Assembly (NCBI GenBank): GCA_963924555.1 | Contig: OZ004594.1 | Span: 682,001 to 746,000 of the forward strand | DNA length: 64,000 nt | Direction of reading: 5' to 3' | Origin: Crambe crambe | Taxonomy: Eukaryota; Porifera; Demospongiae; Poecilosclerida; Crambeidae | Shown: positions 2,875 to 64,000 of the stretch, in pieces | How the letters are laid out: each line of letters begins with the position of its first letter | Position numbering within the stretch: position 1 is the first letter of the stretch | Program-made: the position numbers and the translations under genes | Notes under the pieces: model-generated | What the model saw: the letters and a program-made list of their open reading frames with translations, nothing else | Databases searched by the model: none | Told to the model about the DNA's origin: nothing

Positions 2875-15011
<12,137 letters not shown>

Positions 15012-21425: not shown

Positions 21426-23373
21426 CAAATATTTAGGCCACAGTAACTGTTTCTCAGGCCCTCCCTCAGATGCCCCCAAGAAATATTAGGGTCAAAGTTC
21501 AAATTAGCTCTCCTATTATCTCTTCAAAAATGGCTACACCCTTTTAATTAAATCTCCAGCTCCCTCCTCAATTTTTATCTGAGAACAAGGAATTAGAACA
21601 CTCCTTTAATTAAATAAATATTTTTAATTGCCTCAAATTTTTGACAGTTTTTGCCTGAGAAACAAGTAACATGGCCTTAGGTATTGTCTAATTCAGTTTT
21701 AGATGTGGTATTACATGATATTTATTATGTTGTGGCTCATTTATTATAATGGAGTTTTATTTGTTAACTTTAAAGATACCTGCTATCGTCCGACCACCAT
21801 TACTTTTCTGGCTGTCAATACCTCTAATGGCACGGCACTTAAATACAAGATTTCCTCTTCCGATACTACTGGCACTATTTTGTTTGAAGATGCCTATCTT
21901 CCCTCCCCCAGTGCATGTGGAGATGATTCGCAGAGATGCCAAAACCTCACGGTTATTACCCACGAGGACGTAATTGTGGTTGCAATACCGCTGAGGAAGA
22001 ACTTCGGGATTGCCACTTTTGAGAACAATGGCAGCTTTCGGGAAAAACGCCTCTTCAACTTCACCCAGGAGTGCGAGCTCGTCTCGATATTCCCACATGC
22101 TCTTCAGCGGAATATGTTACCATTACAGGGAGTGTGCCTGCATGGTAACCAGAATGGTTTCTTATTGAATCAAATATACATCTCAATAAATGCCACTCAC
22201 TTGACAGAATCACTGGGTACGCAGCGTGAACGAGGTACTAGACAGCTACCGATGTGCCAAGTTGTGAATCCTTCAGCATTTATATATTCAAATTCACCTG
22301 CAATCTCAAGTTCGTTAGGTGCAACTATTTTTGTGGATGTAAGAACAGTTTTTGTCCAGATAACTAATCAGAGATGTGACCCACAAAATGATCCAATGGA
22401 ATGTTCTGTGTTGCAAAGGTTCGTGAGTATCACTCCAAATGTCCATGCAATATATTGCAACATGCAGACGTATCTCTTCCGTTTGGATAGAAATTCTTTG
22501 ATGGAATTTGCAAAAAGTGTAGAGGGATTGCCTTTCTTCTGTTCCAGTACAATGTATTACGCCTTCAAGGAAGGGAACCTCACTCTTCATCATGTTGGGA
22601 ATCGGAGTGCTTCGGGAGTTGCAGTGCCATTCTATTTTCAGAATATCACTCGAGGTGATTGTGCTGTTTTGAACCATTCACAGATAGTTTTAGTCCAGTT
22701 GAGTGATGGTACTGTGGTATCTATGAACTTCAGCCATCCACATAACACCTTGGGATTTAGCTCTTCTCCTCCTCGACGGTTTGATCGTTTTGTGCTCCTA
22801 AGTAATGCCACTCATGCGTTGGTGCACGATCTTCTCAGTGGAGGTCTAGTAGACACTCTGGAAGAAAGTTCTCCGTTCATGGGATATGTACTTGGAATTA
22901 GTTCTGAAGCTGTGCCATGTTTTGTAACTCCTACAACGAGCTCAAGACCTCCCAAAGAAACTACTACTCCTGCAGTTATAGGAGTTTCAGCTGCAGTGAG
23001 GCTAGGGCTAGGGCTAGGGCTAGGGTTGATCACTGTGCTGATCATTGTGATTGTTGTGGTCATTATTGGAATCAAGATGTGAGTAAAATGAATGATAGCG
23101 AGCAACCCCATGATAATTATGTTTCCTTTCACTAGCCATACCAAAAGGAGGAACAACCAACTACAAAGTTTTATACTTCCAGAAACAGGAGATCAAAAGG
23201 AATCTGAAGTGATTTGTCCCACTGAAGAAACTAATCCATCTGGATGTAGACATCAGCAGCAGCTAATACCAGGAGGTACAGTTAATCCACCTCCAGCCGA
23301 TCCACTTCCACCTCCACCTCCAGCTAATCCGCCCCGTGATAACAATCATATGACTCAGAACAACAATCAGTAG
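21100..23373 (+). CDS. Cluster member 1: type I membrane protein, unrecognised family
   Basis: Three exons, 21100-21187, 21776-23078 and 23136-23373 (542 aa). Exon 1 is a signal peptide ('LLLIAVVVQVLIESTA') ending in phase 1. Exon 2 holds the whole ectodomain and the membrane helix ('LITVLIIVIVVVIIGI') and ends in phase 2. Exon 3 is a cytoplasmic tail with a poly-Pro run (PPPPPPANPP), a possible SH3/WW/EVH1 ligand. The ectodomain has many N-x-S/T sites and the four shared blocks: CGDDSQRCQNLTV, VVAIPLRKN, LPFFCSSTMYY and RGDCAVL. Repeated short hydrophobic strands suggest a beta-propeller-like fold, but I cannot match a domain. A GGGCTA hexamer repeat encodes LGLGLGLGL at the start of the membrane segment. 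A Met at about 21703 opens the long frame but precedes the exon and would lack the signal peptide. Confidence 0.8.
21390..21424. repeat. Poly(C) tract of about 35 bases
   Basis: Uninterrupted C run in the first intron of cluster member 1. Its length is likely unstable in cloning and sequencing. Confidence 0.95.
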
Positions 23374-23487
23374 CACTAATCCCACCACTAAGTGCTAGAA
23401 TGTGGGATGTAAAGACAGAAATACAACCAAAAAAATATATTTTTTTAAAAATTACCTGATAAATATTGCTATTTTAATTGGTTACTA

Positions 23488-23541
23488 CTAATTGGGGACA
23501 TCACCAACTACATTATTACTGCTAGTGTGTTCTGGTTTTGT
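23488..23541 (-). pseudogene. Relic last exon of a cluster-family gene
   Basis: Read on the minus strand this gives KPEHTSSNNVVGDVPN followed by a stop. It lines up with KPEPTSSNSVVGDN in the last exon of member 2 at about 25590-25640. No remaining ectodomain is found beside it, so it is the tail end of a lost or rearranged copy. Confidence 0.6.
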
Positions 23542-23761
23542 ACTGGCCAATGTTGGTCAATACCATTATCATATTATCACTGAATACCACAGTCATTGAG
23601 TACCTTCTTCAATCATTGCTAAGTATAAAGTGACCTCTTAGACCTCTTAGCATAGTAAACAGCTGTACATGAACTATAACCAGCACATTCCAACTTGGAT
23701 TTTCAATGCAACCTCCACTTAATAATTATCCCCTTAAGTACCAAACCAACAATTATTTTGG

Positions 23762-25120
23762 ATGGCTGAGCCTGCTAGTCATATAAAGCCTGCAAGAGCA
23801 GGCACATGCCAGCAAAAGGTGTCATTTACAATACATAGAAGAGAAATGGCTGAGAAGATTCCTTCCCTTCAAGACAGTTTTATGTCTGCTGTGACTTCTA
23901 ATCTTGGAAAACTAGCTGCAAGTGTTCAGTGTCTTTTCTCCTGCGGAGGCATTATACCTGAAGCTGAGAACATTGTCCTAACCTACAAGAAAGGGACTGG
24001 AGACTGGTCTTCTTCTCTTGAGTTACCTGCAGGGTTGAGGGATGGAAATGTTCAAGAATTCCTAGATTCCTGCTCTACTGCTAGTTTTGGAATTGGTAAA
24101 GAAGCTGTCATTGACAAGAAATATCGTAATGCTTTGAAGCTAGAGCCAAACCGGTTTTTTTTTTTGCTAACTTTGAGATAAACACTTCTGTCTTAGACCA
24201 CGTTACTAGGATCATGTCTATAGGTTCTTCCATCCATGCAGAACTGTATATGCTCAATGTCTATTCCAAAGGTGGTCTCTTAAGTCCCATCGTGATACTC
24301 CTCGATCCAAGGACATGTTTGGTAGCCTCATGGTGTGTCTTCCACTTCATGGGAGGGGCACTGGTCACCCGACATCAAGGACATCAAGTCGTATTTGATT
24401 GGTCCTCTTCCACTGACACTCACTGGGCTGCATTCTACAGTGACGTGGAGCACGAGATCCTTCCTGTGACCAGTGGGTATTGAATCACCCTCACCTACGA
24501 CCTCTACTACAAGTCAGCAGTATCATCACTGAATGTTACCATTAACCCTCTTTACCAGGAGTTGTTGGAAGCTCTACGCTCACTTCATGAGGGAGGGCGG
24601 CACCCTTGGGTTCTTTTGTCAGCATCAGTACACTGGAATCTCTACTGATCTCAACAGTTTCTCTCCTTTTCTCAAAGGAGAAGATGCTCTTATTTATGAG
24701 ATAGCAAAGTCCCTGGAACTACCAATATCAGTAAGGCCAATTACCAAATGTCCTGACATTATAGTGATGGAAAATTCACAATCGCCAGCTCCAAATACAT
24801 CCTTCTGGCATTTTTAAAGAAGGATAGATGTACTAATGAAGATCATATTATGTGGGATGATGATATGGATGATGATAGCACAATAAAAGATAATACGGAT
24901 GACGATAGCACGATGAAAGTCTTAAAAGATCATTTTGGTAAGTCTGTCAGGCATGATGATGGCATTGTGTGGTGTCAAGATCCTGAGGTAATGGAGAATA
25001 TAGTGGAGATGACCGAGTATGGAAATGACCCTTGTGGTTGTGAAATTTATCAAGCTGCAGCTTTCCTTGTTGAAGTGCCAAAATTTACAAGTAACCGTGG
25101 ATTCACAGGAGGAGGGGAGA
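23762..25120 (+). pseudogene. Broken 2OG-Fe(II) dioxygenase (prolyl-4-hydroxylase-like) gene
   Basis: Pieces of one protein appear in successive frames: an N-terminal part at 23762-24150, 'LYMLNVYSKGG' at about 24240, 'HRDTPRSKDMFGSLMVCLP' in another frame (24275-24340), 'GGALVTRHQGHQVVFDW' back in the first, 'SDVEHEILPVTSGYRITLTY' to about 24500, a further shift at about 24595, and 'YGNDPCGCEIYQAAAFLVEV' near 25020-25075. This order fits the Fe2OG dioxygenase family common in fungi and some invertebrates; the iron ligand motif H-x-D is in HRDTP. At least four frame changes, one at a T-run near 24155, separate the pieces and no introns explain them. So the gene is dead, or this stretch carries sequencing errors, which is less likely because the neighbours are clean. 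Confidence 0.75.
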
Positions 25121-25559
25121 AATCGAAGAAGAAAAGAAGAATTAGTAACCATGGATTCACAGGAGAAGAAGAAGAGGGGGAAAAAATTGGAGAGATAAAA
25201 AATAAATAAATAAATAAAAAAACCCAAGAAGAAAAAAAGGCACCCAAGAAGAGAATCACTAAAGAGGAATGAAAAACATTGATTGACTTCTGCTGTGACC
25301 CAGTGCATATATATATATTTATTAGCAATTGATCAACAGTGCTGCCAGCATTTTTTTTTTTTTTTTTTTTTTTTTTTTGCATATGGGAATAGATAGCAAT
25401 CTACTTTATCTGCATATTCAAAATTAATTAGGAAGGCTTGAAATCCAAGACGAGGCTAGACCTCAAATCACCATGGGAAACTAATACTGTGCACCACTAA
25501 GTTCTGTAATGATACAGTGATACCATAAAAACTTTTTTTTGTGTTAATGAATATTAGTA

Positions 25560-27586
25560 TTAGTTACTACTAATTATTAGGGGGAAATTGTCACCTACTA
25601 CACTATTACTGCTAGTGGGTTCTGGTTTGTTTGCATTCTCTTCTGTGGTTCTACTTAATGGCACCATTTCAATCAAGTCCTTATTTCCTGCACGCTGAAA
25701 TGTCTTGCATCTGCCTGCACGACTTTCCTGTTCGGCTGTTTGAGTAATGCTCCCACCACCTAGTCATTGAACACCAACCACATCAGTCATTGAATACCAC
25801 ATGCTTGAATACCACACCACATCCTTAAATACCTTCTTCAGTCCTTAATCTCATTAACTAAATACACATAGTTAAGTAAGTGGCCATTATGTCACTTAGC
25901 ATAGTTAATGGACTGAAAAATAAACTAACAAGCTTGTTTCTAATAACCGTACCTGTGGGAAGGACATTGGATCCCTGTATGCTGACACATTTTGTCTGAC
26001 CGTCTTCTTGTACTTCTTCTTGCACAGGTTTGCTCAGCCTGAAAGATGACAAAGCTAGAATAGAAACACTGGCAGTTAGTTAGTTCATGACCCACCTTGA
26101 TTTTTTCCACTGCACTGCTATCAGCACCACTGCCAGTAGTATGGCCAAGAGAACAACTATTGGCACCACTGCACCAGGCAATATTTTTCCCAAGTCGTTT
26201 CTAGTGTCAGCAATATCATCTCTTGGAACTTGATTAATGATGTCGGGAGGTAGAACATCAGGAGGAGACTGTGGGCATTCCATGGATAGTAAAGTAACTA
26301 ATGGTGCTGTCACATGAAGAGCTTCTATTAAAACTAATTGTTCTCCAAACAGGTCTAAAACGGTTACTCTTCTACTCGTATCATCTCTGTAAATCAAGTA
26401 TCGATCTTCTTTAACGATGAGTGGCAGACAGCCTTGACATGTGGATGACGGCAAGATGGCAGTCAAATTAGAGGTTTCTAGATCCAGCACAAATGTACCA
26501 TTATTTCCCACAAATGCAAAGTATCTTTGTGTTGAGTTACCAAAGCAAATTCCACTATTATGTTCTCCTTCCAAGATTTCCACGTTCTCATGTAAATTAT
26601 TGCGAATGTTGTACTGAATGTAGCTAGAGAAGACACTGAGATTAGTTCCAGACCTGGGACATGAATAAGGGACTCCTTTTCTCGTGAAAGTGTCTCCATC
26701 CAGCCAATCTCCTTCCCCGATGTCGTAACGGATGTAACTCTCTGAACAGAAGGCTCGAAACTGAGCTCCATGGAGTGGGACTACAGTGTGCACTCTGTCA
26801 CAGTACATACTTGGAATGTCACCAAGGCGACGCTCTATGTAAAGGAATGGTCTGAAGGTATAGATTGCAGTCCCCACTGCAAACGCAATGTATTCATGGT
26901 TTTCGTCAATCTCCACATGTATGAAGTTGGAGGAATTGGAGATATTCCCAACGCTGCTTGGTATTGTAATGTGATTGGTCAGATATGCAATCCGGCTGCT
27001 CTGTAAAGAGGTTTTGTTCAACAGAACTTCAAAAACGGACACAAAATTAGTAGTTTTATTAGTGCACACAACATGATATGCTGTAAGGATCTTAAATGAA
27101 GTACTTGGACTGCAATCAAAGGCAGGTGATTCGCCATAAGTCCTGAGAAAGATAGAGTCCATGTGATATAGCAAGTTGGCATCTCGTTTGACTTCAACTA
27201 ATGCAAGCTCCCTATGAAGCGGTATGAAGATGAAGCTGTGCTGTGATTCATTGGTGAAAAATGTCTCCACGAGGAGGTTTTGGCATCGGGAGAAATCATG
27301 ACTGCATTCCTGAGAGAGATGGTGTCCACGAAGGAGGAGTTGTTGGGAGGCTTGCGATGATCCAGGAGAGACGGAAGTCCTCTCCTTCATGGATCCAGCG
27401 GGGAAAATGGAAATAGTGACACCATCAGAGCCATCTTCAATTGTACACAAGATCTCTTTCTTGCATGCTGAAGACAAAGCTGTTAAAATATTTTAATAAT
27501 TAATTTATAGAAAGCTAACTTAACACACCTTGACTAATGGAGCTGGAGATGACCAACAGGAACAAAAAAAATATTGCAGTGCTCAT
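25560..27586 (-). CDS. Cluster member 2: type I membrane protein, unrecognised family
   Basis: Four exons on the minus strand: 27586-27529 (signal peptide 'IFFLFLLVISSSIS', phase 1), 27467-26096 (ectodomain and membrane helix 'VVPIVVLLAILLAVVLIAV', phase 2), 26038-25953 and 25687-25560, giving 547 aa. The last two exons are inferred from splice signals and frame and are less certain. Shared blocks: CSHDFSRCQNLLV, FIFIPLHRE, VPYSCPRSGTN, SGICFGN, plus paired cysteines 'STCQGCLPLIV' before the stalk. It is the closest relative of member 4, sharing for example 'GNISNSSNFIHVEI' against 'GNITNSSNFLHVEV'. N-glycosylation sites are frequent. Members 3 and 2 are head-to-tail with only 188 bp between them. 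No known domain is recognised. Confidence 0.8.
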
Positions 27587-27774
27587 GATTGCTGCGACTA
27601 ACTATTAACTCTGAGCGTATGTATGCATGCGCATTGCAAGCCATTATAAGTCCCTGGGGAAATCCCTGGGAAAATACAACTGCATCAGCTGAGTCAGCGC
27701 TCCCGCCACGCCAATAACCAACTACAATGATGCAATAAACACCATCAATGAATTATAGGTCAAGGGTTATGTGG

Positions 27775-29644
27775 CTAATTATTTCTATGCATAGGAATGC
27801 TATTGTTGTCATAGTCCAGTGCATTTGGTTGCTCCTCTTCATGTTGTGGTTGTGGATCATGTCTACCTAATAATACTAAATCATCTTGTTCACCACCTCT
27901 GCTGTTATTCGTTTCTTCCCTACTATGTACAGGAATTGGAGTTGAAGGAGTAGATGTGTCCACACCATAATTGAGGTATTCCTTCTCCTTATCTGCACAC
28001 TGCAACAGCATCCTTTGAATTTTCCAACGCCATCTACAGGTAGCAGAAAACATGCAATCATCAATTTCCACTACTTGTTCAATATTCATCCTCCCCTCCC
28101 TCGTTCTTTATCATCTTATAAAATCCCTCTTTGACCACAATATTATATTCACAGTCATGGATGGACTTTGGTAACAATACATGTAATCATAGGTAACATG
28201 CACTTACCTAATTAAACAAGCAGTGGTAATGCCAACAATCAGGATAATAAAGAATATGATGCCAAAGACTGCTCCAACTATGACTGGAGTTGTGGAAGGA
28301 GTTGTGGGTGGACTTGTGGGTGGAGTTATTGTAGGATTGACGGAGGGTGAACCTGTGCTAGTAGGTTCAATGGGTGGACCTGTGCTAGTAGGTGGAGCTG
28401 CTGACTTGTGAGGAATAACTGTGACCAATGATGTGGGGACGTCATCAATCTGGATGATTTTCGTGTCATGAACAGAATCAATAACCGTGAAACTATGATT
28501 ATTACGAATAAGAATGTAGCGATCCAAAAAAACCGAAATGACATCACAAAAGCTTCTTATGCATCCTGATGTGTTCAGGCTAACCACTTCCAGACGATCG
28601 TAATTTTGGGATATAGAGACCACATAAGCACCACTGACTCTGTCATTGTACACAAACTTCTCCTCACCAAAACAGATTCCTGAGTCGTAATCGGATGTAG
28701 ATAACCTAACTGATAGGTTTCTGTAGGAAAGGCATTCTTTATTGTGATCAAGGACGTAATGTTCTTCAGAGCAAGGATAGTATAGACCCCCCTCACCAAG
28801 TAATGAGTTCGATCCTGTAAGCTGATTAAAACTGTACACACGATCATTGTCACAGTACAATATATATTCAGATGAACTTTCACCCTGCAGCATGTAATCT
28901 ATATAGTCACATTCTTCCAGTTGAATCATAGATGGTCGCATAACAATTTTTCTTCTGACTCGAACTCCATAGAATAGTTTCCCGATGAAGAAGCGTAAGT
29001 GAATTAGATCGATGTTGTCACCTACAACTACGACATTTGAAATATGAAGAATTCTGGGTGTTGAAGTGTAAGTACACTGCGGAAAAGAAGCAGTTAAGTT
29101 ATCTTCTAGTATCTGCATACTGCAAACACCCAACATGTGTGCATCTCGGATGCATAATGCATAGATAACACCTTGAATATTGAAGACATCAAGTGTTTGA
29201 CAAGCCGGAGTTCCATTATTAAGACTATAGAGAGTAGTGTGCATAGCACTGTAAGATATTTCAGATCCATTGTATCTCAAATCGATTATCCATATTCCAT
29301 TCTCCAATGGTACAAAAACTAGATACCTTATCGTGGAATTTGGAAAAGTATGGTTCATGACTAGCAAATTCCTACAGCCATGGCCAGCACAATATTCCGA
29401 CACACTTCGGTTGCTTGGCTCACTGATAGTGAATACCTTGGTGGAGCCGGAGGGGTCTCTCTGAATCACACTGAGGGTTGCTATTCCATCGAAATTGCCC
29501 ACGGCAATGACATGTACATTCTCTGCGCAAAACAAAGACAAAATGAGCCCCACCCATTTGATACAATAGACTAGTCTTACCTGTCGGAAGGGTAGTGGTT
29601 GTGCAGACAGAGCCCACGAAAATAAGTATAAGCAGACTCTTCAT
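27775..29644 (-). CDS. Cluster member 3: type I membrane protein, unrecognised family
   Basis: Three exons: 29644-29581 (signal peptide 'LLILIFVGSVCTTT', phase 1), 29522-28208 (ectodomain and membrane helix, phase 2) and 28033-27775 (tail), 545 aa. Shared blocks: CAGHGCRNLLV, LVFVPLENG, LYYPCSEEHY, SGICFGE. A Pro/Thr-rich stalk of about 45 residues with repeated 'PPTSTG' units stands between ectodomain and membrane helix and is probably O-glycosylated. The helix is 'VFGIIFFIILIVGITTACLI'. The cytoplasmic tail has 'KEYLNYGVDT', which contains a Y-x-N pattern of the Grb2-SH2 ligand type, but this is weak evidence. The gene is divergent from member 4 with 356 bp between the starts. Confidence 0.8.
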
Positions 29645-30000
29645 ACTGTCGTTCAAGGCGAAGGCTCTTCAAATGTCAAATCATGAGCCTTATTTAAAAC
29701 ACGAATGCGCCAGCTCATTTCATTTTGGGTGATTTACCTAATTTTTTATGCATCGATAAGATCCGGTAAATTCATTCCGTCAGCAAGGTCCAAGCTAGTT
29801 AGTATTTACTAACTAACTTAGTAACTAGTTCAATCTTAAGACTCCATAATACTCAGCCACTACTGGTGTAGATAGACATTGCTGCCATTCCAACCTCTTA
29901 CCACCAGAATAGCTAATGGGATTTCCCCCTGTGCAGGCTGTGGGGTTTCCCCCGGGTAATACCCAGGTAAATTCCTGAGGACATGTAAACAGAAGAAGAT

Positions 30001-31925
30001 GAGAGTTCTTTTACTGCTGCTCTTATTTACCAAGATAGTCTGCGATCAAAGTAATATTTGATTTTTTCGTTTACAATGTTGTCTATAATGTTGTTTATGT
30101 AGATGATTGCAGTAAATATCTGTTAACTGTGAATCAAGATTCTGAAGGAGTCACACTCTCTTTAGCATCCAATCACAGCTCCGGCCACCCTAACGCTCAA
30201 TCCCTCCCTCAGTACAAGATATCTACTCACCAATTATCGAAAGAATGCGGTCTCAACTTGGTCCACTGCCAGCACCTTATTGTGGATTCAACCCATCTTT
30301 CCAGCAATCAAGTCCAACACTTGATTTTTATTCCACTTATTAGAACCCTAGCAATAGTCGAGCTACTCCAAGACTCTGGTGGCATCCACTTCAACACTCA
30401 TTCTTTGATCCCAACCTCGAGCTCTACTATTAATTGTAGCCCAAGCACCCTCTTCAACATTTCCAATGGATACTATCTCGTGTGTAGTAATTCTTCAACA
30501 AATAGAGTAATGATGCTTGAAGTACTATTGAACAGAACGTCTCTTTCTAGTACTACGATTGTCCAATCAAACTCTCTACAGATTCCAACTTCGGCAGGAA
30601 ACATCACGAACTCTTCCAACTTCCTTCATGTTGAGGTGCAGAGTTATGAGTATGTTGTTTTTGCTTTAGGAACAGCTGTCTATTCCATGAGACCCATTGT
30701 ATATATATCTGATCGTCTTGGCAATGTGGCTGGGTCATGTGACCATGTTCGTACTTTAGTTCATATCGACAGTGATACGATAATGGCTTACTGTTCCGAT
30801 CACTGGGTGACCTACAGCATAGGAGAACGTGATTGGTTGCTGCAGAACAGTTACGAGCAAAGTGGAAGACCGTTCCCTTGTCCTAATGCAAACATGGAAC
30901 TAAAGGTCTTTCCTAACTTCATCCAGTACCAAATCAACAATGTAGCAAAGACCTTGGAAATCAACGGCTCGCATTTCGTGAGTGGTATCTGTTTTGGTGA
31001 TTTTGGTCGCAATCATTTTGCATTCCGGGACGCAAATCGTGGTGTATTTGTGGCAAATTTGGAATCCTCTGAACTGTTCCGAGTGTCTTCGAGTGCTTGT
31101 GGTGGTATTGCCAATTGTTCTCCTCTAGTGGTAGTGGGAAACAGATACCTCGTTATCCGAGATAACGAAAGGGGTAGTGGGGGAGTCCATGTGGTGGATT
31201 GTGTGAGCAATGTGTCTGAAATCATCACCACCCTTCATTTCGTTCCTGACATGGCAGCTGTCCTGGGTTCTCATGAGGAGCTCTGTGATAGTAACGCTAC
31301 CACACAATATCTACCAACTCTCTTTCCCCACGCAAAGGACGACAAAAGGATAATCAAAATTATTTTACCAGTAATTGGAGTGCTTTTACTGCTCTTGCTC
31401 TTGGGAGTGCTTTTCATCTTTTTAATATTAAGGTATGATGATGTAATGGTAATTGTATAATGGTATGTATTTATTAACAATTTGCATAGATACTCCAAAC
31501 ACCTTCGCCGTCCTTACACTACACTGACAAAAACGATATTCACGTAAGTCTAAGTCTACATAGTCTACAATATATAGTCTTTGGAATTCCTCCTGGCCAG
31601 GCACTAAGTGATCTCATGTTATGTATACAGTGAAACTGATCGTACTCACATTACAACCAAGGACCCTGATCTAGTGTCCATTCACCAGGAATCCAACTTG
31701 ATTAGGCCAGTGCCAGCTGCCGATGTGATGACCCCAGTCGAGGCTGCTGATATAAGAGCTCCTATTCAAGCTGTGAATGTCATGCCACCACCACCCGTAC
31801 CAGTGGCACAAGGTATTAAATACATCCTAATTTAATTAATTAATTATTTCTCTCCTCTCCCATTTTCAGATCAAAGTTTGTATTCCTATGACAACCATAA
31901 AGACACTGAACCCTTACTTAACTAG
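30001..31925 (+). CDS. Cluster member 4: type I membrane protein, unrecognised family
   Basis: Five exons: 30001-30052 (signal peptide MRVLLLLLLFTKIVCD, phase 1), 30103-31432 (ectodomain and membrane helix, phase 2), 31490-31543, 31631-31812 and 31870-31925, 557 aa. Shared blocks: CGLNLVHCQHLIV, LIFIPLIRT, RPFPCPNANM, SGICFGD. The membrane helix is very leucine-rich ('ILPVIGVLLLLLLLGVLF'). The tail starts with a basic stop-transfer patch (RYSKHLRRPY), continues with Pro/Ala repeats, and ends in two closely spaced tyrosines (SLYSYDNHKDTEPLLN). It is the closest relative of member 2 though on the opposite strand, suggesting an inverted duplication. Confidence 0.82.
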
Positions 31926-32168
31926 TCCAGATAATTCCTTAAGCACATAATACTAATGACTTGATTTTATGTGACGTTATTAATCGGCTGGCGCTGATGA
32001 AATCCTGCGGTTTTTAGAGGGAAAGTTTTGGGTGTCGTCCCCCCCGCATGCTCATAACCTTTGAACCTTTGATCTATAACTTCCGTTCCTATTAAAAGGT
32101 GCCTTCTCCTCGGCAGTTATGCATAAGGATAAGGTTTGGCGAAATCACTTTTCTTCTCAGCAGGTATC

Positions 32169-34660
32169 ATGGTTATTAGCAGGAGGTGGCGCGCTGCAGC
32201 TCTCTTCAACGTCGTCATGATCTGCAGCCATCTGTGTGGTAAGCCCATTAGGCTTTGAATCTCGTTTCTAGTCAGCTAGGCCTGGCGACTTTGAATCTCG
32301 TTTCCACACCCTTTTAGCCAGCTAGGCCTAGGTTTTTAGCGAGAAGCTGCTTCCTCTCGGCAATGATTATCACAGGGCTGCATGTAGCAAGAAAATTAAT
32401 ATTTATTAAGTGGAGTTTAGCTAAGTGTCTCCTATTATTCTGTGTTTGTATATTGTAGCTATAGCCATGGCTGACAAATTGTGCTCCGACGTTATTCGTT
32501 CATGCAATAAGTCAACTTGGGCACTGGTGAGTAATGCCACACAAGGCATTGAAGTCACAGTATTCTCTGCTGATGATGGGAACGATACCTTCATCACAAC
32601 AGAAGTAACCAACCATTTTCTCCCTTCCGAATGTGGTGTTAATTACCAGCTTTGTAATTTGCTCGTTGTTGGACAGTTTCTCATCATACCTGCCAACAGA
32701 AGCCTGATCATCTATCCCCTCCAAACCAATACTGCTTCACACTCCACAATGATACAGAACATTCCAATCGACTGCAATCCTACTGGTATCTCCACACCAT
32801 TTCAAGACTCTTCACTAGTAGTAGAGTGTCGAAACACCGCTGACCATTCTCTGACATATCTCTTTCTCTCCATCTCAGAGACAGGCATCAGTTTTCACCG
32901 TCCCAGAGCTCCTTACCACGCAAGAAAATTCTCAAGATCACACCCCACTTCCCACGCATGTCACGCATCTGGTAGCTCTATTTATGTGGTTGCTGACAAT
33001 GGTATCGTGAGCTATGGTGGTTCGGGGTTCCAGGAACTCCAGGAGATTGTGAACTGTCAGGATGTATCCCACACTGAGTATATCGAGGAAAAAGGGAGTT
33101 TGGCCATATATTGTACAAACGATGTGGCAGTGACATACTCGATCTGCTCCGATGACCTTAGGTACTACAATCTCACGGGAGGCATTCCGTACTTCTGCTC
33201 ATCAAAAACGGTGTTTTTCATGAACGAATCGATACGAGTTGAGGGTAAGGATGGGAACATAGTCCTAGCGAGAGTGAATCACACGTTAAAAGACATTGCT
33301 TATGGCAAGTGTCAAGATGATAAGTACTTTGTGATGACCACAAAGAATGGCTCACTCTATTCACTCCAGTTTACATCTCCTCTATCCCTCATTTCCAATG
33401 CTACATGCCAAAATGGCTCGTGTGTTATACCAGCCTTCAGTCCGACCAGCTCTGAATTCTTGGCATTTAATTTCAAAAATAAGTCTGTTGTATCTGTGAA
33501 TCTGCTTGGAGGTTGCACAGAACCAATCAGAGAATTCTTCAGAACCAACTCAACTGTGTCTCTAATGACTGCGATTAGTTCCACTGACACAATGTGTAGT
33601 TGTGAGTATTGCAATCCTCCCACCACTGAAGAAGTCACACCTGCTGAGACCAATAATATGCCAACAGAAATGACAGAGAACGCACAAACTATGGCCGATA
33701 CCACTGACAGTGACTCTGTTACTACTGACGATTCTAATTTAGATGTCAATTCACCCCCAAGATTTCGGACTAGTCAAGTCTCCATTGTGGTATCAGTTGT
33801 TGTGGCAGTGATTTTAGGCTTAGTAATATTCATTACTACTGTGTGTGTCTTCAGGTGAGTATTGTGTGTAATGATTGTTATGACAAACTGTTTTAATTAA
33901 TAATCCCTTCTTAGTGTTGTGAAGATTGTAAGGAAAAGAAGAAAGTAAGAGATACTATTAGTCTAATCAGCTCTACCTTAAATTTATGTTTGATTTTCTC
34001 ATAGATTTGGTTCACTTGGTGACATTTCTTCAACTATTGGGACTGATATAGAAGCTGGCAGGTAAGACTTAGATGTAGTTATATTGTGCAATCCATATTA
34101 GACACACATAATGTGCATGGTCAGCATTCTAATAAGGGAAGTGAATGCACCTTGACCTTTCTACAACTTGCAATGATACTAGAAAGGTCAAGGTGCATTT
34201 ACTTCCTGCTGAGTTATTTTCGGGGAGGCACTTATGTCAATGCCTGTTAATTAGTGAACTGTCTTGTGTAGTGAGTAAGAGAAGGGGCAATCCCTTATTC
34301 AACTCTTGTGTGGCGAATAAGAGAAGGGGCAATCCCTGTAATCAATGTTCAATTCTTAGACTGGACGATTTCAAAGATGCAGACGAGGATGTGCCCACTG
34401 TGCAAAATGGACAACCTGAGACTGGATCAGATAATCAGATTACTCTTCAAGATGTGCAAGCCGAGACTGTAATGGCTCATACTGTGCAAGATACACAAGG
34501 TGGGATTCACGGAGGCTTAGTATCAGGAAATGTCACACTCTCCTCACCCAGTGGCTTTGACTCCAATGCAATCAATCAGTGTTATCTTAGCAAAACTAAC
34601 ACAGAACAGAAAACAAATGAACTATCACATAAAATACAAAATTTACCACCAGAGCCATAA
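32169..34660 (+). CDS. Cluster member 5: type I membrane protein, unrecognised family
   Basis: Five exons: 32169-32238 (signal peptide, phase 1), 32459-33854 (ectodomain and membrane helix, phase 2), 33915-33944, 34005-34061 and 34360-34660, 617 aa. Shared blocks: CGVNYQLCNLLVV, LIIYPLQTN, IPYFCSSKTVFF, YGKCQDD. The juxtamembrane stalk is rich in Thr, Glu and Asp, followed by the helix 'VSVVVAVILGLVIFITTVC' and a strongly basic stop-transfer stretch (KIVRKRRK). The tail is long, Gln/Asp-rich and without a domain I know. Signal-peptide choice: the Met at 32169 precedes 'AAALFNVVMICSHLC'. The gene converges on member 6 with a 54-bp gap between stop codons. Confidence 0.8.
34139..34347. repeat. 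Hairpin plus tandem duplication in intron 4 of cluster member 5
   Basis: 'Agtgaatgcaccttgacctt' (34140 on) and its near complement 'aaggtcaaggtgcatttact' (34183 on) form a stem of about 25 bp. Just after, a unit of about 50 bp with 'aagagaaggggcaatccc' occurs twice in tandem (about 34270 and 34318). Confidence 0.75.
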
Positions 34661-34714
34661 TTTTGATCACCATCTCTTTATGGATAATGAATATTATTTA
34701 TTATAGAGCATTCT

Positions 34715-36708
34715 TTATACCACCACATGGGGGCTATTATCATGTCTGTCATTTGAAGTTTGAATTGGGGGTGGATCAGATTCAGATTCAGGGATGCTTG
34801 CACCATCCATTTCTTGATCTTCCCGTTCCAGAAGATCAGCAGATGTAGATCGGGATATATCTGTACTGTTCTCTCCGCTGTTCTCAATGCCAGGTATACT
34901 CGGTCTTGAAGTGGTCCTATGAAAAAGTCAAGGATAAAGAAAGGAGCTGGGGGATTTAGGGGGTCAGACTTTGGAATTATGACTGTGATTAGATAGGCCC
35001 AATAGAGAGTTAGTCTTGCACATAGTGAGTCATGCTTTACCTGACCATGGTACTGGGTGATGGAGGACCAGTACTATTTGTTATCTTCTGTTTCCTGCAT
35101 CTTTTCTTCACACAACTACAGCAAATAAGCACAAATAAATAAAGTCAGTGTATGAAGATTCAACTCACATTGTAATTGGAACTATTATGGTCACGAGAGA
35201 AAGGATAATAATAATTATACCAAAAATGGATGTGGACAACACTATGGCAATCGTAAGACCACGAGTATTCCTTTGCACAATAGACATCATATTAGAGGCA
35301 GTAGTTGGAGGCATAATGGAGCTAGGAGATGTCAGTATCACAGAAGAAGTTGCCGGTAGTTGAATTACTGAAGATGGCACTATTAATCTTGTCCTTAAGT
35401 TTGTCAAGAGTGCCAGAGCACCTGCTGCAACTCTTGGTCTTTGAATGATCGGTAGAAATGAACTGTTGAAGACGATAACTTCATTGGCTTTTTGGACAAC
35501 AAAATATAAACCTTCAAAGACCATTAGATCTTCACAATGACTCTCCCTGCTGCAAAGACTGCTGCTGATCGGATCAAGCAGACGCCTTGATGTTGCATTG
35601 AAGACACTAACACCCTGAACAGCATCAAGAAAGACAAAGAAACGGACCGAGTCCTTCATAAGACACTCTCCGTACAGAAAGTCTGTCCCGGTGCTATGAA
35701 AGCGAAATGAATTCGAAGCAATTGCATCAGAGTGTGTTATCTGAATATCATGGGTGCTTTGTTGCACTTTAAAATGATGCTCAGACGTGGGGCAGGCATA
35801 TTGAATTCCGGACCCGTTCAGCGAAAGACTTCGACTCACTCTCTCGTCTATATTATACCGCACAGCCTTCCCCGAGCTGCAATAAGCATAAAGGATGTGA
35901 TCTCCACCATACACTATCCGGTCACACTCAGAGTTATCCACGCCAGAATACACTTGCACATTTCCACGATCCAATCTAATACCAAATATGTGGCCTTGAG
36001 CTAAAAATAATACTTGGTTCCTGACATCGGGTGTATACATGAAATTTGATACGAACTGGTAGTCATTGTCTGTAAAACTCCTAGGGAAGGTATACAGCCT
36101 TACGGGACTCCGAAGGTAGGACCTAGAGACTGAAGTATACTTTAGTCTTACTTCACGCGAGTAAAGTGTTCGCAAGCCCGTGCAGAATAAAACCAGAACT
36201 CCACCTATGTTGATGATTTCCAGTGGAACACAGTCATCGGTAGTCAATACTGCAGTGGAGCCTTGCAGCAAACTAGCACCATTATACACCAGCTCCATAA
36301 GCCCAATTGCATTTTGTAAAGGGGCCACTACTATGAACTTTTCTTGGGTAGAAACAGTTGTAGAGTTGATAATCATCAGTCTATGACACCTGTAGGCAAA
36401 AAAATTGTTCTCTCTGCCTCTGCAGCCTCTGGAAAGCCTTTGATTGCCAGGGAAGTCGTGTATGGTGACTCCACGCTCATTTCTAGGTGTCACAAGAACT
36501 GCAGCTGACTGAATATTAGTATCAGGATTGCTAGAAACCGCAAGGGTGATCAAATGCTCATTAGAAACTGCATAGGGGAAAAAAGTGATTTACTAGCTAC
36601 TAGCAGTGAGTGATCTACTGTACCTTGCTGAAGGCAATGGTTGCTATCCTGGTGTAATAATCCAATAGTGAAGACGACTCTTACAAAAGAACCAAGCTTT
36701 ATGTCCAT
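34715..36708 (-). CDS. Cluster member 6: type I membrane protein, unrecognised family
   Basis: Four exons: 36708-36624 (signal-like 'SFVRVVFTIGLL', phase 1), 36567-35169 (ectodomain and membrane helix 'IAIVLSTSIFGIIIIILSLV', phase 2), 35115-35041 and 34916-34715, 586 aa. Shared blocks: a widened first pair C-x10-C (CRGRENNFFAYRCHRLMI), IVVAPLQNA, IQYACPTSEHHF and YGECLMK. The signal peptide is less hydrophobic than in the other members. After the membrane comes a basic Cys-containing stretch (ICVKKRCRKQK) and a Ser/Asp/Pro-rich tail. It is the most diverged member. Its start lies 155 bp beyond the DJ-1 stop codon on the same strand. Confidence 0.78.
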
Positions 36709-50185: not shown

Positions 50186-53100
50186 ATGGAGCAAGCTGGG
50201 CTATCTTCACCATTCCAAAAGGCGCTGCCTTACTTTCCAGACTTCGGCTACCAAGCCACCATTCATTTCAAGGATGGTGTCGAAAAAATGGACAAGGAAA
50301 CGCAAGAAATGATTGTGGCTCTCATCAAGAGACTAAATGGTAAGTTCTGCTTGTTGGCTATTTCTATACTTACTCATTAAGTAATTTAATAGATGAATGT
50401 GCGAAAATCGACAGCCGCTTTCCTCCTAGCAGTGAAGGCAAGAAAGTTGCTCACTCTGGCTTTAACATGGGGTTTGAGTTGAACTTGTGGCAAAAATGGT
50501 GCAGACTATTGGGCCGTAAGCCATCTGCCCCTGTTGTAGAGGCAACCAACTTGATGAACTCTGAGGATAACTTCATGAAGAAGCACTCCAAGCTGAGGTA
50601 CACTGAGAGGGGGCACATTTGGTTCTACTTGAAAGCAGAAACACAGGAGGATAGTGAAGTCCTGTTGAAGGCAAGGAACACTGTATTGTGTATGCATAAA
50701 TGTAATATTATTGAGGAGAAGCAAGAGCTATAGGGCTCATGCAAGCATCTGCATGCTTGGTGTGGTGGATTGGTCACTGAAACCACAGGTTATCAGTTTA
50801 CATGCGGACCTTGATTATCATATCCATTGCCAAGGGAAACAAGAACCCCATGTACCATCCTTAATTGAAGATTGGTTTATGATTGATGCACAGGTTGTGC
50901 GTAAATGTGTGAAGCCACTCCCCCCACATAGATTGCTTGTTACTACTGCCTACAAGAAGCACGAAGGAAGAGTATTGGGAGGGCAGTTTCTGGATGGGAT
51001 CTCCAATGCTTTGGATGCTATATCACTGAAGAGGCAATTATATAATATAATAACTAATTAAGTAATATATTGCATGGGAAACACTGGAGTAAACTTGGGC
51101 CGGGCATCCAGAAGATGGCCATGCATGCAGACTAGCTCAAATTGTAGACAGAAGATTGTAGCTACAGTGCTGGTGGCCACAGCTGTTGATCTGCAGATAG
51201 TATTTGTGTGGTGATCGGCGCACAATAAGTATTTGGCCAGCCTTTAATATCAATGAAAGACTCATAAAATCACTTGTGTAAACTGTACTGATATGGGGCT
51301 ATGGCCACTTCAATATGTTCTGCAGACAGTTCTTTTTCTTGTATAGTCAGAAAGATATTTATGTGGCTATAACAAACTCATGCATTCATTATTTAATGGT
51401 GCAGGAAAGTGCTTTTATTGCCTACATCATCTGTGGACCAAGGAGAGGTCAGTCCAGAAGGAGGCACATTTGCTTTCATGCAGTTCTTTCAGCTTGACAA
51501 GACATTGTTTAGTGATGCTACGCACCCTCAATTGGAGAATATGATAGGACGGGATGTCATTAACAGTGAATCACTAGCTAGACCTGATGAACACTGCCAC
51601 ATCAAAAGAGCCCGACTCATCGATCCGAAAGATGGCAGCAACACTGAGCTGCTCCGTCAGTCCCTACCATTCAACACCCCAAAAGGACCTCCTGATTTGG
51701 ATCGTGGACCAATGAATGATGGTGTGTTCTTTGTTGCATTTGGTCAAAGTGCTAAAGTATTCTCTGACATCTTGGGAAATATATTTGGTGACAAGAAGGC
51801 CTTTATCCAGGACTTGCTGATCAAAAATGTCCAAGGACGGTGAGAACATAAAGTCAAATGGCTCTTAGATACTTGGGAGATAAAATTTCTTTGGACTAAG
51901 CAAAATAGCTAAGCCTTCCATTTCAATATTTCAATTTTTTTAAACTCCAGTTTTGGGAAGTTTTTTTATTGTCCCAACACTAATGAAGTCCAAGAGCTCC
52001 CAAGCTTTACAGAAAAGGACCTCTACCCTCCAATCCCATTCTGGTCCACGAACAAGAGCAAGAATGAGGCTTATTTCTACAACCATATCCAGTATCTCCA
52101 TGCCATGGCCACTGACTACAAGTTTGGAGATCCTCCTTCAGAAAGAATCTTGTACTTGATGAGTGAAGTCTTTGCTCGCTGGCACTCAACTTGGTAAGAG
52201 CACAAGTGGTTGCTATGGCAGGTTTTTACTTAGCTAACTAGAGCACGAGTGGTTACTATGGCAGGTTTTTTATGGTCTCACGCTAGCTAGTGGCTAGAGT
52301 TAATAATATGAATTCACTGATTGATCTCAGGATCCACAAATTTGATGTACCTCGTCTCCCTCACTTGGAGGAGTTTCTTGGTAAGAAAGAGAAATTCATC
52401 ATGGACAGGCCCATTCAAGAGAGGAAGGGCTATAGCTACATGAAGATGCTTGGAGAAGTCTTTACTACTGATAAGTGAGTCTTTGATCAATGCAAGCTGC
52501 AGATCAAGTTGGGTGAACTTTCTGTCATAATAATTTTAGACCATTTCCTGATGAATCTGGTAAAGTTTATTCCTACTCTGAGAACTTTGATACCTACCGC
52601 CTTGATCCAAAGGTGAGGCTCATGCGCTGTTGTTGTTGTTGTTGTTGTTGTTGTTGTCGTCGTTGTCATTGTTGTTGTTGAGGCTAATGCATTACTCCTG
52701 ATTTTAGGAGCTGATAGTGGGGGTGAATGAAAGATTGTCTTCTGGTAGTGGCAAGGAGATTATGCCATATTTGAAGGAGAATGGGGAACGAAGTCTTTCT
52801 TATGCGCTTGGTCTTGCCGAGGACGGGAACATGGGACACATTGTGCCTGGACACAACTACATTCTTGAACTGGCAAGCTAACAAGCTAATGTATTGGTAG
52901 CTATTATAATTAATTTCCCAATGCCCATTGAAATTAAATAAAAAACAAAACAAAAAACAAACAAACAAAAACAAACAAACAAAAACAAACAAACAAAAAC
53001 AAACAAACAAACAAACAAACTATAGGTTCACGTTATCTTAATATTCATTATGCAACTGTTTTCCCAACAATATAACTATAGGGTGTGGCTGGCATGCTAA

Positions 53101-53535
53101 AGAAGCTCAACAAGTTGAAGAAGGAAAAACTAGACAGTGGACTCTCAGACACTTCTGATCAGGTCGTGTTCTACCAGAGTGCGATATATGCCATTGAGGT
53201 AAGTATAAAAGTCAAGACCTAACGAGTCGGAGTTTTAGAAATTGGCATACTAATCCGTGACAGGGTGTGCAGCTCTATTTGGAGCATTATGCTGGCCTTG
53301 CAAAGAAACTCAAAAAGGAAGCCACTGACAAAAAGTGAGTAGTAGAATGCTGTCAGTTGTGGACTGATTCCATCGGTGAGTTTTAACACCCTTGATGCAT
53401 GCCATCAACTATTCATACAGTGATAAAGTGAATTTGAAGAGTATCAAACAGAGGATGCGTCGTCTTGCAAAGGGTGCTCCTGAAGACTTCACATTCCAGT
53501 GAGTTACAAGAAGGAAAATCACAACCACAACCAGG

Positions 53536-53572
<37 letters not shown>

Positions 53573-56500
53573 TCTGCTCTGCTCTGCAACATGAAGTGAT
53601 GCGGCTCAGATGGTCTTCACTATGCACTGCTGCCTCCATCTTTGTGGTCAGGCTGTAGCTGTGGGGAGGCTGGACCAGCTTCTCATCCCATATTACAACA
53701 GGGACATCGAGAATAAAGTTTTGAATCCTGATCAAGTAAGATTTACAAGCAAGTATATCTTTGTAGTAGATATAGCTAAGCAAGTTGGCCATCATTGATT
53801 CCATCCCCTAGCTGACACTCATGTTGCATACAGGCACAGGACATCATTGATGCTTTCTTCATTAAATTTGATGAGCATGCTGTCCTGAATCGCTACAATA
53901 TTCCTTATGGTCACACCACCTATGGCTCAACTGCAGTCACTGGCCGAGGAGGTCCTTTCGCAACTGGAGACTCCCTGAATCAATGGATACAACAGGTAAT
54001 GTAGAGAGTGTAGCTCTCATGTAATGATTGCTTTACGATCAATGTATCAGATGACTATCGGTGGTTGTGATGAAGATGGTAATGACGCCTGCAATCCGGT
54101 GACCCTGATGTGCCTCAAGGCCTGTCGGAGGCTTCCCCTCAATGCCCCGTGCATCTCTCTGCGCCTGTCAAAGTCCACTCCCCTGGAGGTGAAGAAGGAA
54201 GCTGTCAATGCCCTTCTCAGTGGAGGAGCACACCCCATTCTGTTCAATGACAGGAAGATGGTTGCAGGTAAGTAATTTCAAATGGTGGGGGGTGACTCAG
54301 AATGCTTCAATATTTCTTTTTTCAGGGTTGTATGACGTCCTCCATCAGTCGTATGTACGTTCCTGCATCAAGGAAGAACGGGATTCGATGAAAGTAGCTC
54401 GAGACTATTCCTGTGACGGATGCTACGAACCGATGTTCACTGGCAAGAGCGAGTTCAAATTCGCCTACATCTTCCTCCTCAAGGTTTGAACCATCATAAT
54501 TAAGAGAGTTTGTGAAAATTATTTTTAAAATGTCCAGGCTGTGATCTTCACCATAAATAGTGGTGCTGATTATCAACTTGCCGATTCTCTCCATCTTGCC
54601 GGAGGTGTGTCATCATACAGAACAGCTCTTCCTGAAGAAATTAATAACTTTGACAAATTCAAGGTAGGTGTGATCTTATCGTGTTGCATATTTTTTGTGA
54701 TAGTCTGGCTATTTCAGGAGATATTTCTGACCCACTTGAGGTTGATGGTGCAAGGGTTGTATAATAAAATCCTTGGTTCCTATGGCAATCCTTGGAAGAT
54801 CTGCCCCTCTCCCCTGTTGTCTTGCCTCTTGGAAGGGTGTCTCGAGAGTGGCAAAGACTTGACAAATGGTGGCTCAAGGTTAATCAATAGCATTACGATC
54901 CTTTTGAACAAGTCTGATGCAAACTGGCTGTAATAATCTCTCTTTGCATTTTAGCTTTCATATTCTCACTCCGATGTATGTTGGATTTGCCAACACTGTG
55001 AATTCCTTGTACAACATAAAGCAAATGGTTTATGGTCGTGAAGATGTCACTACTCTGCAAGACTTGAAGATGGCTCTGTTCAACAATTGGGGAGAAAAGT
55101 GAGAGAGAATCAGATACAGTTGCAATTACCATGCCAACTATGGACAGCGTACAGTACAGGTGGTCTGCTAAAGTGAGGCTGGAGCGTATCGTTATAGTGG
55201 GTGGTTTGCTGTGGACAGCCACCCACTGGTCATTTCTGCAATGTGACACATACTATTGACATTTTGTAGTCAACTGAATTACCTGTGCTGTCTGCAATTT
55301 TTATTAATGTAGCATGGTCGAGCCTTTCTATGATGCCACTAAAGATGGAGCAGTCCACACTCAAGGTTTTTCCCAGAAATTCAAAGCTCTTCGCAAGTAT
55401 GCTCTTATGCTACCTAAATTTGGAACTGACACAGCCAATGATGAAGTACGCAGCTGATGTGTGCATGTCTGGCTGAAGAAATTTTAAATGTGTACGTTTT
55501 TAGATTAATGATTTGGCAAAATGGCTGGCCTCTAAGATGGATGATATTGCATACAAGACTCTTTATGACGCTGGTCCCATCAACGACCTCTATGAAGCAC
55601 TCAAGAAGAAGCATAGCACTCCTGAAAATCCATTCCTTTTCCAGGTATACAATGCAGCGCTAGCATACATAATGTCTTGTGGATATTCAAGACTTGAGAT
55701 TTTTCAGTTCTTTGAGGGTCTCCTTCATTTGTCTACTTAACAGGTTATGACTGGCAGTGGAACGTTTGAGAGTTATGTGAGTGTTGGAAACGGGTGTGCT
55801 GCCACTCCCGACGGCAGACTTAATGGCCAGCCAACCGCCTCAGACTTCAGCCCACAACCATATGCACAGGTGCACATTGATGAATCCTATTGTATTGTAT
55901 TACTGTTAAGCTATGTACCAGCTAAGATCACTCAGGACATAACACCATCAAGCTTGTTAGCTTGAGTTCATTAGATGCTACTGTACTACTAATGTTATAG
56001 CATATTATAGACTATTGTATCACTGCAGGATCATCCCGTGCCAAATGGGAGTCCACTGGATATCGTGGAGACCTTGAAACCATACCACACCTTGGACTTT
56101 GACAAGTGAGTCATCTAGCTTATGAGCTATGCAATGTGCAGTCTAAGAGCTATGGACTTTATATTACTTAGTTAATAATAGGGGGTGGCTGTGCTAACAA
56201 TTATTGTTGACTTTAGTTAATGCATTTGTGATGTTCAGGTATGTTCCAAATGGATGCGAAGTGGACCTCAACATTCCTGAAGATTTCCCACCTGAATCTC
56301 TAATGGAGTTCATTGATGCTTTTATCAATGTATATCAGGATATTAGATATTATAGCTAGCTACATGAGACAGCATTAGGTGGTCCTGTAACCATGACAGT
56401 GATGTAGCCACATGGGATCTATAGGAGACTAGCTATACCTCCCAGTATGTACAGTGGGAACTTCTGATAAAGGTAATAACCTCCAAAAGAGGATGACCTC

Positions 56501-56810
56501 TACAAAGAATGACAGGGTCCCAAATGTGTCCATTATTTGGAGGTTCCAGACATCGAGGGATATAACTTGTACACCTAGAGATATTTCCAGCTACATTCCT
56601 TCTTCTTTGTGTATGCAGGAGGAGACAGGCTCCAACCTTGTCACTGTGACCTGCATAAATCGTGAGACCATGGAGAAAGCAAGAGTACAGCCGCAGAAGT
56701 TCAACCTTGTTCGCAACAGGATGGGAGGGTGGACAAATTTCTTTGTTTCGATGTTCGAGCAACACCAGATGCAGCACTTACGGAGGCCCATGTTTAAGCC
56801 TCATAAGTGA
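50186..56810 (+). CDS. Fusion of a DyP-type peroxidase-like domain and a glycyl radical enzyme (PFL superfamily)
   Basis: 24 exons: 50186-50339, 50393-50670, 50894-51033, 51405-51839, 51951-52193, 52331-52474, 52540-52612, 52708-52872, 53082-53198, 53264-53334, 53421-53498, 53597-53735, 53834-53995, 54051-54267, 54326-54483, 54538-54663, 54718-54878, 54955-55098, 55313-55445, 55504-55644, 55744-55869, 56029-56105, 56239-56329, 56619-56810; one frame, 1254 aa. Residues 1-345 look DyP-like: GGQFLDGISN (Asp178) and HIKRA (His256, candidate haem ligand). Residues ~350-1254 are a glycyl radical enzyme: 'YNIPYGHTTYGS', 'GGCDEDGNDA', catalytic Cys838 in 'ARDYSCDGCYEP' (family GCVEP), and the radical loop RMGGWTNFF with Gly about 1228, 26 residues from the end. 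Substrate unknown. No activating radical-SAM gene is seen in the window. Introns after 50670, 51033 and 52872 use GC donors. Cytosolic by lack of signal peptide. Confidence 0.85.
56450..56570. mobile_element. CAGTG-type repeat copy in the last intron of the fusion gene
   Basis: 'Cagtgggaacttctgataaa', then 'ggtaataacctccaaaagag' and 'ccattatttggaggttcc' match the copies at 57320, 61863 and 10560. The ends are imperfect inverted repeats. Confidence 0.6.

Positions 56811-57029: not shown

Positions 57030-64000
<6,971 letters not shown>

Follow-up and report, generated by a model that had tools for sequence, protein, structure and literature searches.

A 64,000-nucleotide stretch of the genome of the sponge Crambe crambe (the window; bases 682001-746000 of the 6.8-Mb contig OZ004594.1, in a genome of 143.1 Mb and 119 contigs) contains a gene in which a DyP-type haem peroxidase is joined to a glycyl radical enzyme (GRE), a class taught as anaerobic and as requiring a radical-SAM activase. 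Positions given without a locus label are those of the window. The whole gene lies on the + strand at 50186..56810 and comprises 24 exons, which splice into a single open frame of 1258 codons with no internal stop, predicted to encode a 1258-residue DyP-GRE fusion protein. The model, predicted from genomic DNA, was assembled by hand from three frames and checked by script, and agrees in coordinates and exon number with a first-pass annotation made from the letters of the window. Every one of the 23 introns ends in AG; 21 open with GT and two with GC (intron 3, 51034..51404, and intron 8, 52873..53081, both +), and the median intron size is 98 bases. The exon 2/3 junction, the least certain, was picked as the best fit to bacterial relatives.

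The DyP half, residues 1-355, is encoded at 50186..51996 (+) by the first four exons and the opening part of exon 5 (50186-50339, 50393-50682, 50894-51033, 51405-51839 and 51951-51996). The GRE half, residues 356-1258, extends over 51997..56807 (+), from the remainder of exon 5 through exon 24, its first ten pieces lying at 51997-52193, 52331-52474, 52540-52612, 52708-52872, 53082-53198, 53264-53334, 53421-53498, 53597-53735, 53834-53995 and 54051-54267 and its last ten at 54326-54483, 54538-54663, 54718-54878, 54955-55098, 55313-55445, 55504-55644, 55744-55869, 56029-56105, 56239-56329 and 56619-56807. Two separate genes were rejected as the simplest reading, since the bacterial fusions (four intact examples, from Asticcacaulis, Pseudomonas and the genomes G248 and G912) align across both halves in one frame, covering residues 72-1252 of 1258; the locus is treated here as one predicted fused gene.

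Genomic setting

The gene had been described as lying among ordinary animal genes, and this setting is borne out. Gene density and the TRIM-NHL genes would fit a sponge host. Among the neighbouring genes are matches to DNA-PKcs, myosin II, DJ-1, gamma-glutamyltranspeptidase and TRIM-filamin-NHL proteins, and the start ATG of the fusion gene sits 84 bases 3' of the stop of the TRIM-filamin-NHL gene. Foreign DNA or contamination, which the first-pass annotation had named among the findings that would overturn its reading, is ruled out by the 24 exons, the 6.8-Mb contig and the animal neighbours. No second GRE gene was found in a PFL-like search of the whole C. crambe genome, all three matches being exons of the fusion gene.

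The peroxidase half

The Pfam profile Dyp_perox_C matches residues 180-350 with 48.5 bits, passing its cut-off of 20. Asp182 (50993..50995, +), His260 (51598..51600, +) and Arg279 (51655..51657, +) align with solved DyPs, namely 7yzt for the animal protein and DypB for its bacterial relative from G912, and we take them to be the distal Asp, the proximal haem ligand and the distal Arg, respectively. Asp182 occupies the distal-Asp position of the DyP GxxDG motif (here QFLDG) and is Asp in the animal, G248 and G912 proteins, and the His and Arg are present in 5/5 fusions. The haem-peroxidase-like domain with the DyP His and Asp proposed from the letters is thus confirmed by alignment.

The glycyl radical enzyme half

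The large half is known from its sequence profile, PFL-like (PF02901) matching residues 526-1062 with 330.8 bits against a cut-off of 24.3, and its sequence matches in the PDB are PFL2, diol dehydratase, choline lyase and glycerol dehydratase. PFL proper carries a Cys-Cys pair. GCYEP, the corresponding motif here, holds one Cys, and TIGR01255 scores 23.6 bits against a cut-off of 994.2, which rules out PFL proper. Thus, assignment to the PFL superfamily stands but likeness to PFL itself does not, the protein being closer to the branch that holds PFL2 and the glycerol/diol dehydratases.

Both catalytic motifs were compared among six DyP-linked rows (the five fusions and an unfused relative from Hymenobacter) and six canonical GREs, hand-picked from plasmid matches. 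Cys842-Tyr843-Glu844 of GCYEP lie at 54421..54429 (+). The Cys842 position, that of the thiyl Cys, is Cys in every row; the residue after it is Tyr in all six DyP-linked rows and V or L in all six canonical ones, and the Glu844 position is Glu in 6/6 and 5/6, respectively. The radical loop, Met1230-Gly1231-Gly1232-Trp1233 (56721..56732, +), reads R[MQ]GGW in 6/6 DyP-linked rows and RVAGY in 6/6 canonical rows, Gly1232 aligning with the radical Gly. The motifs GCYEP and RMGGW are therefore intact as first claimed, and neither the Cys nor the Gly is lost on alignment. The Pfam profile Gly_radical has a cut-off of 22.2 bits, which neither the animal protein (12.6) nor that of Pseudomonas (16.0) reaches; for the Asticcacaulis, G248 and G912 proteins no match to it is listed, and a Hymenobacter piece passes with 22.7.

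Trp734 (53984..53986, +) lies in an extra, family-specific loop ending NQW[IMV]QQ and is found in 5/5 fusions and Hymenobacter and in 0/6 canonical GREs. His537 (52837..52839, +) aligns with His166 of the diol dehydratase 5i2a, being conserved in 5/5 fusions, Hymenobacter and 5/6 canonical GREs; we presume a substrate-site role for His166, as for His283 and Ser284 of the same enzyme. The positions of the latter two are not conserved, reading Q655/A656 in the animal and E/P in the four bacterial fusions. Since the His/Ser pair after the first substrate His is replaced, glycerol or propanediol appears unlikely as substrate, and the earlier opinion that the pocket residues name no reaction holds, the diol-dehydratase residues beyond the common His being replaced.

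Bacterial relatives and the DyP-linked subfamily

Plasmids were searched by tblastn over 72,556 records, with the best 30 of 49 matching records considered and, in a further search, the best 20 of 122. At least two family loci (Asticcacaulis and Hymenobacter) occur among the matches listed, in which the fusion of Asticcacaulis sp. AND118 (31.9% identity over 94%) is the only match to most of the protein. The 1342-residue fusion of Pseudomonas sp. SDI (L003) was the one locus obtained from genome contigs using two short peptide patterns, a search of low sensitivity. Genome sampling matched 3 of 398 genomes (C. crambe, the intact fusion of G248 and a decayed fragment in G384), 1 of 385 (the query genome itself) and 2 of 369 (G384, the query genome with its decayed copy, and the intact fusion of G912), the G384 fragment being counted in both the first and the last of these. 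This fragment (L040 9216-9767) contains internal stops. Viral contigs yielded no relative, and among phages, with seven records matched, no place covered 80% of the fusion. The DyP-GRE family looks rare.

The bacterial relatives are 1209 to 1342 residues long, and in one alignment the animal fusion is 32.6% identical to those of Asticcacaulis and Pseudomonas, 37.0% to that of G248 and 36.2% to that of G912. Compared by half with the Pseudomonas protein, identity is 29.2% in the DyP and 36.5% in the GRE portion. Together with the retention of His260, Arg279, Cys842 and Gly1232 in 5/5 fusions, this suggests that both halves are under constraint. In Hymenobacter cellulosilyticus the pair is unfused, with a GRE whose reading is split over two frames and a DyP gene directly after it (L002 10079-13418). 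Of the C-terminal half of that DyP gene just the first third is left, through decay or assembly error.

A tree of the GRE half, built from the six DyP-linked and six canonical rows with the second Hymenobacter piece left out and three rows of odd letter make-up, splits the two groups with support of 100/100; within the DyP-linked side, the animal protein groups less firmly with G248 and G912, at 80/88. Judged by alignment and tree, the DyP-linked GREs are a separate subfamily with its own radical loop, a Tyr after the Cys and the NQW[IMV]QQ loop.

The genes around the fusions vary. A DUF2278-SUMF1/FGE-like-fusion block is common to the Asticcacaulis plasmid (L001 7622-13723) and Pseudomonas (L003 7585-13738) with 71-74% identity, and beyond these three genes no other DNA match between the two was detected at E 1e-5 in ∼23.7 kb each, the flanks being unrelated. 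In G248 and G912 the fusion is instead directly followed by a DUF2608 gene (L039 12973-13926 and L053 2042-3034), the start of which looks secreted, with a phosphoesterase gene beyond it in G912. The Hymenobacter locus has a PLD-like gene close by, together with a frame that resembles HAD weakly, its 19.1 bits falling short of the cut-off. Partner genes thus differ between sub-clades, and no activase is among those seen.

The claim of a peroxidase-GRE fusion in an animal stands, but not as a one-off animal invention, given the four bacterial fusions found here and the ascomycete and bacterial ones described in PMC5041501. The sponge gene probably came from bacteria long ago and then gained introns.

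Search for an activase

Canonical GRE loci have an adjoining activase in 6/6 hand-picked cases. None is annotated within 10 kb of the DyP-linked genes in Asticcacaulis and Hymenobacter, in a gene table that is incomplete. Open frames of at least 120 codons at five loci (L001, L002, L003, L039 and L053) were scanned for CX3CX2C, giving a single match, in a Pseudomonas frame that is not gene-like, and none in Asticcacaulis or Hymenobacter. At the genome level, TIGR02494 exceeds its cut-off of 174.35 in none of five genomes (24.7 bits in C. crambe, G000; 19.1 in G001; 37.2 in G248; 37.6 in G384, which has the decayed copy only; and 21.3 in G912), and TIGR02493 exceeds its cut-off of 231.75 in none of four (no match in G000; 43, 59.1 and 41.2 bits in G001, G248 and G912, respectively). 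Each of these profiles passes in 3/14 control genomes, as does PF02901 (E. coli, Bacteroides ihuae and Lactococcus lactis). A clostridial activase query returned nothing in G000 and G001 and short, weak pieces only in G248. PF13353 (Fer4_12) was discarded as an activase test, as it passes in 14/14 controls and in G001 at PqqE-/MoaA-like places; its single animal match falls below cut-off, in a MOCS1A-like exon. Combined, no GRE activase scores over cut-off in the four searchable genomes of the five intact-fusion hosts, the Asticcacaulis chromosome lying outside the searches, although absence of a profile match is not proof.

The first-pass annotation had proposed looking for an activase elsewhere in the animal genome. 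That search was made exon by exon and recognised none, with the same reservation as to profile absence. C. crambe gave nine radical-SAM matches, spread over eight places. Their profile identities are HemN-like, RlmN, ELP3, MiaB-like (two), LipA and viperin, only RlmN passing its whole-protein cut-off; one further match reads as MOCS1A, and the L038 piece is assigned to the LipA gene from its place. The two animal TIGR02494 matches read as ferredoxin-type exons of complex I TYKY and dihydropyrimidine dehydrogenase. The best PFLA-like places in G001 are QueE and PqqE, and the best PFLA-like frame in G912 reads as QueE-like. The animal assembly also holds an intronless RlmN gene (L032, G000 C21:5667028-5667507; 366.1 bits) and a HemN-like gene (L030, G000 C22:1877-2392), both of which look bacterial, whether by transfer or contamination.

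Other features of the window

The interval 21703-36589 holds six open frames that lack introns and are 459-478 codons long (21703-23079 +, 26083-27492 -, 28207-29640 -, 30039-31457 +, 32425-33855 + and 35168-36589 -), with a C-terminal membrane-like stretch visible by eye. Two of them were scanned and neither gave a Pfam match; by BLAST, five of the six are weakly akin to another, one pair at 40%, and the first shows no kinship. A tyrosine-recombinase-like open frame at 5171-5647 (-), matching Phage_integrase (Pfam) with 18.6 bits, below cut-off, is perhaps a mobile-element remnant. A long (GAGT)n/(GA)n simple repeat at ∼58051-58498 adjoins the DNA-PKcs-like exons.

Discussion

The C. crambe gene is, on its predicted sequence, an animal member of a DyP-GRE fusion family known from bacteria and, in the literature, from ascomycetes, with haem and radical motifs kept. 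PMC5041501 describes the DyP-PFL fusion (dyprx, DyP B) in Chaetomium cochliodes and other ascomycetes and in bacteria, reports its detection in other prokaryotes and eukaryotes, and infers transfer between proteobacteria and ascomycetes, deriving the ascomycete proteins from bacterial fusions. In culture, H2O2 raises the fungal fused gene 3-fold and peroxyacetic acid 18.5-fold, and a DyP tree legend in the same paper includes molluscs and deuterostomes without saying that they are fused. Among the matches listed in our literature searches, none reports a DyP-GRE fusion in an animal and no other paper treats the DyP-PFL fusion; the terms searched do not occur in the main text of PMC4784904 (prokaryotic genes in Amphimedon) or PMC9524095 (sponge enzymes of reactive oxygen species), and the accessible part of PMC4232752 holds nothing on the fusion. 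The architecture is thus already known; what we regard as new is a GRE subfamily that stands apart through a radical loop of its own and in which no activase is recognised.

We suggest, as a possibility that falls somewhat short of probable, that the two halves constitute one oxygen-tolerant radical enzyme in which the DyP would make or repair the radical in place of a radical-SAM activase. The DyP haem would use H2O2 to make or repair a protein radical ending on Gly1232/Cys842, acting in cis on the GRE half, which could then run a dehydratase- or lyase-type reaction, as its GC-x-E motif would allow. This proposal is made because the halves are fused or adjacent, residues are kept in both, no activase is recognised and the peroxide induction of the fungal gene fits. 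Counted in its favour are the Tyr adjoining the Cys and the Gly-Trp of the radical loop, both confined to the family, the constraint on both halves, and the shared block, which consists only of DUF2278, SUMF1 and the fusion, with no activase. The lack of a recognised activase in the animal genome weakens the plain case of a protected anaerobic GRE and opens that of a peroxidase-made radical. The wider proposal, a peroxide-driven GRE in which the fused haem peroxidase replaces the activase and permits thiyl-radical chemistry in air for an oxygen-breathing animal and aerobic bacteria, is more doubtful and is advanced with correspondingly greater caution; in it, Tyr843 and the Gly-Trp of the radical loop would belong to the radical path.

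Several observations weigh against a DyP-made radical. We know of no DyP that activates a GRE, and a route from the haem to the Gly is traced in no structure. The animal DyP half scores 70.4 bits with the NCBIfam profile Dyp_perox_fam, below the cut-off of 100.5, which both bacterial fusions scanned pass (Pseudomonas, 168.7; Asticcacaulis, 162.9), its best PDB match is only 34.8 bits, indicating divergence, and the distal Asp is replaced by Glu in 2/5 fusions (Asticcacaulis and Pseudomonas). The activase searches also have their limits. Eight radical-SAM families would be expected in the animal by comparison with human. Six, perhaps seven, of these were recovered, TYW1 being missing, so the search is incomplete, and, as exons of this intron-rich genome match one by one, whole-protein cut-offs say little and a missing profile match is weak evidence. 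An AmmeMemoRadiSam enzyme in G248, with a similar frame in G384, scores 57.9-59.1 bits to PFLA and 640.9 to its own family. G001, G248 and G912 are of unstated completeness, G912 is fragmented and the Asticcacaulis chromosome was not covered. Finally, a putative PFL activase is reported in the fungus (PMC5041501).

The alternative that survives best, although we consider it rather unlikely, is an ordinary GRE with a shield, in which an unrecognised radical-SAM enzyme would make the radical and the DyP half would clear peroxide near the radical site. The first-pass annotation had suggested that the peroxidase protects the radical domain, and the suggestion stands as a rival, weakened since no activase is recognised in the animal genome. 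The putative fungal activase and the induction of the fungal gene by peroxide (PMC5041501) agree with a shield. So do the conserved Gly and Cys and the retention in Hymenobacter of a DyP gene adjoining the unfused GRE, but no activase over cut-off occurs in any of the four searchable intact-fusion genomes and the shared three-gene block has none. Moreover, it is O2 that cleaves glycyl radicals, and a peroxidase leaves O2 in place.

An improbable alternative is that the GRE fold carries no radical and that the PFL-like half serves only to bind a substrate or partner for the peroxidase. The Gly_radical scores are low or unlisted in all five fusions, the radical loop departs from the canonical one, no activase is recognised and the hosts are presumably aerobic from their appearance, all of which would suit such a fold; yet Cys842, Glu844 and Gly1232 are invariant in 5/5 fusions and Hymenobacter, although the animal protein is just 32.6-37.0% identical to the other fusions, at which distance a dead site would hardly remain so, and the Hymenobacter piece passes Gly_radical (22.7 against 22.2). 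Two enzymes acting in sequence with separate cofactors, the DyP oxidising a compound and the GRE half splitting the product, is very improbable, for although the halves are fused, or adjacent genes in Hymenobacter, and the phosphoesterase, DUF2608, PLD-like and weakly HAD-like genes near some loci may point to a pathway, the neighbours differ between sub-clades, so that no common pathway is visible, and activation of the GRE half would be required all the same.

If the peroxidase does make the radical, aerobic thiyl-radical chemistry would follow, perhaps much as in class I ribonucleotide reductase versus its anaerobic cousin. A family in an animal and in bacteria with intact motifs and no recognisable activase in the searched genomes offers a direct test of peroxide-started glycyl/thiyl radical catalysis in air, and the size of the bacterial relatives makes a spectroscopic test simple. 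Even if the DyP does not make the radical, the locus adds a GRE-like enzyme from an animal and a signature that defines the subfamily, the latter for a DyP-PFL fusion that has been in print without a function since at least 2016.

Comparison with known systems

Among established enzymes, the GRE half is closest to the B12-independent glycerol and 1,2-diol dehydratases, choline trimethylamine-lyase and PFL2, with which it has in common the PFL-like profile, GC-x-E, the radical Gly and His537, equivalent to His166. Unlike these enzymes, the DyP-linked proteins have R[MQ]GGW in place of RVAGY, a Tyr after the Cys and the extra NQW loop; the diol-pocket His/Ser is replaced, a DyP is fused and no activase is recognised. 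The DyP half has the same Asp, His and Arg positions as DypB and the encapsulin-associated DyPs, which we take to be of B type and which rank among the top PDB matches for the bacterial G912 protein, but differs from them in the divergence of its animal version and in its fusion to a GRE. The fusions described in PMC5041501 have the same order, an N-terminal DyP and a C-terminal PFL-like domain, a likeness judged here by domain order, and occur in ascomycetes and bacteria whereas the host here is an animal. Finally, the proposed division of labour would resemble that of class I ribonucleotide reductase, in which a metal/oxygen-derived radical in one part feeds a thiyl Cys in another. Class III, its anaerobic cousin, uses a glycyl radical. 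The likeness is one of analogy, with no homology, as the radical in the fusion would be supplied by a haem peroxidase and not by a diiron/tyrosyl protein.

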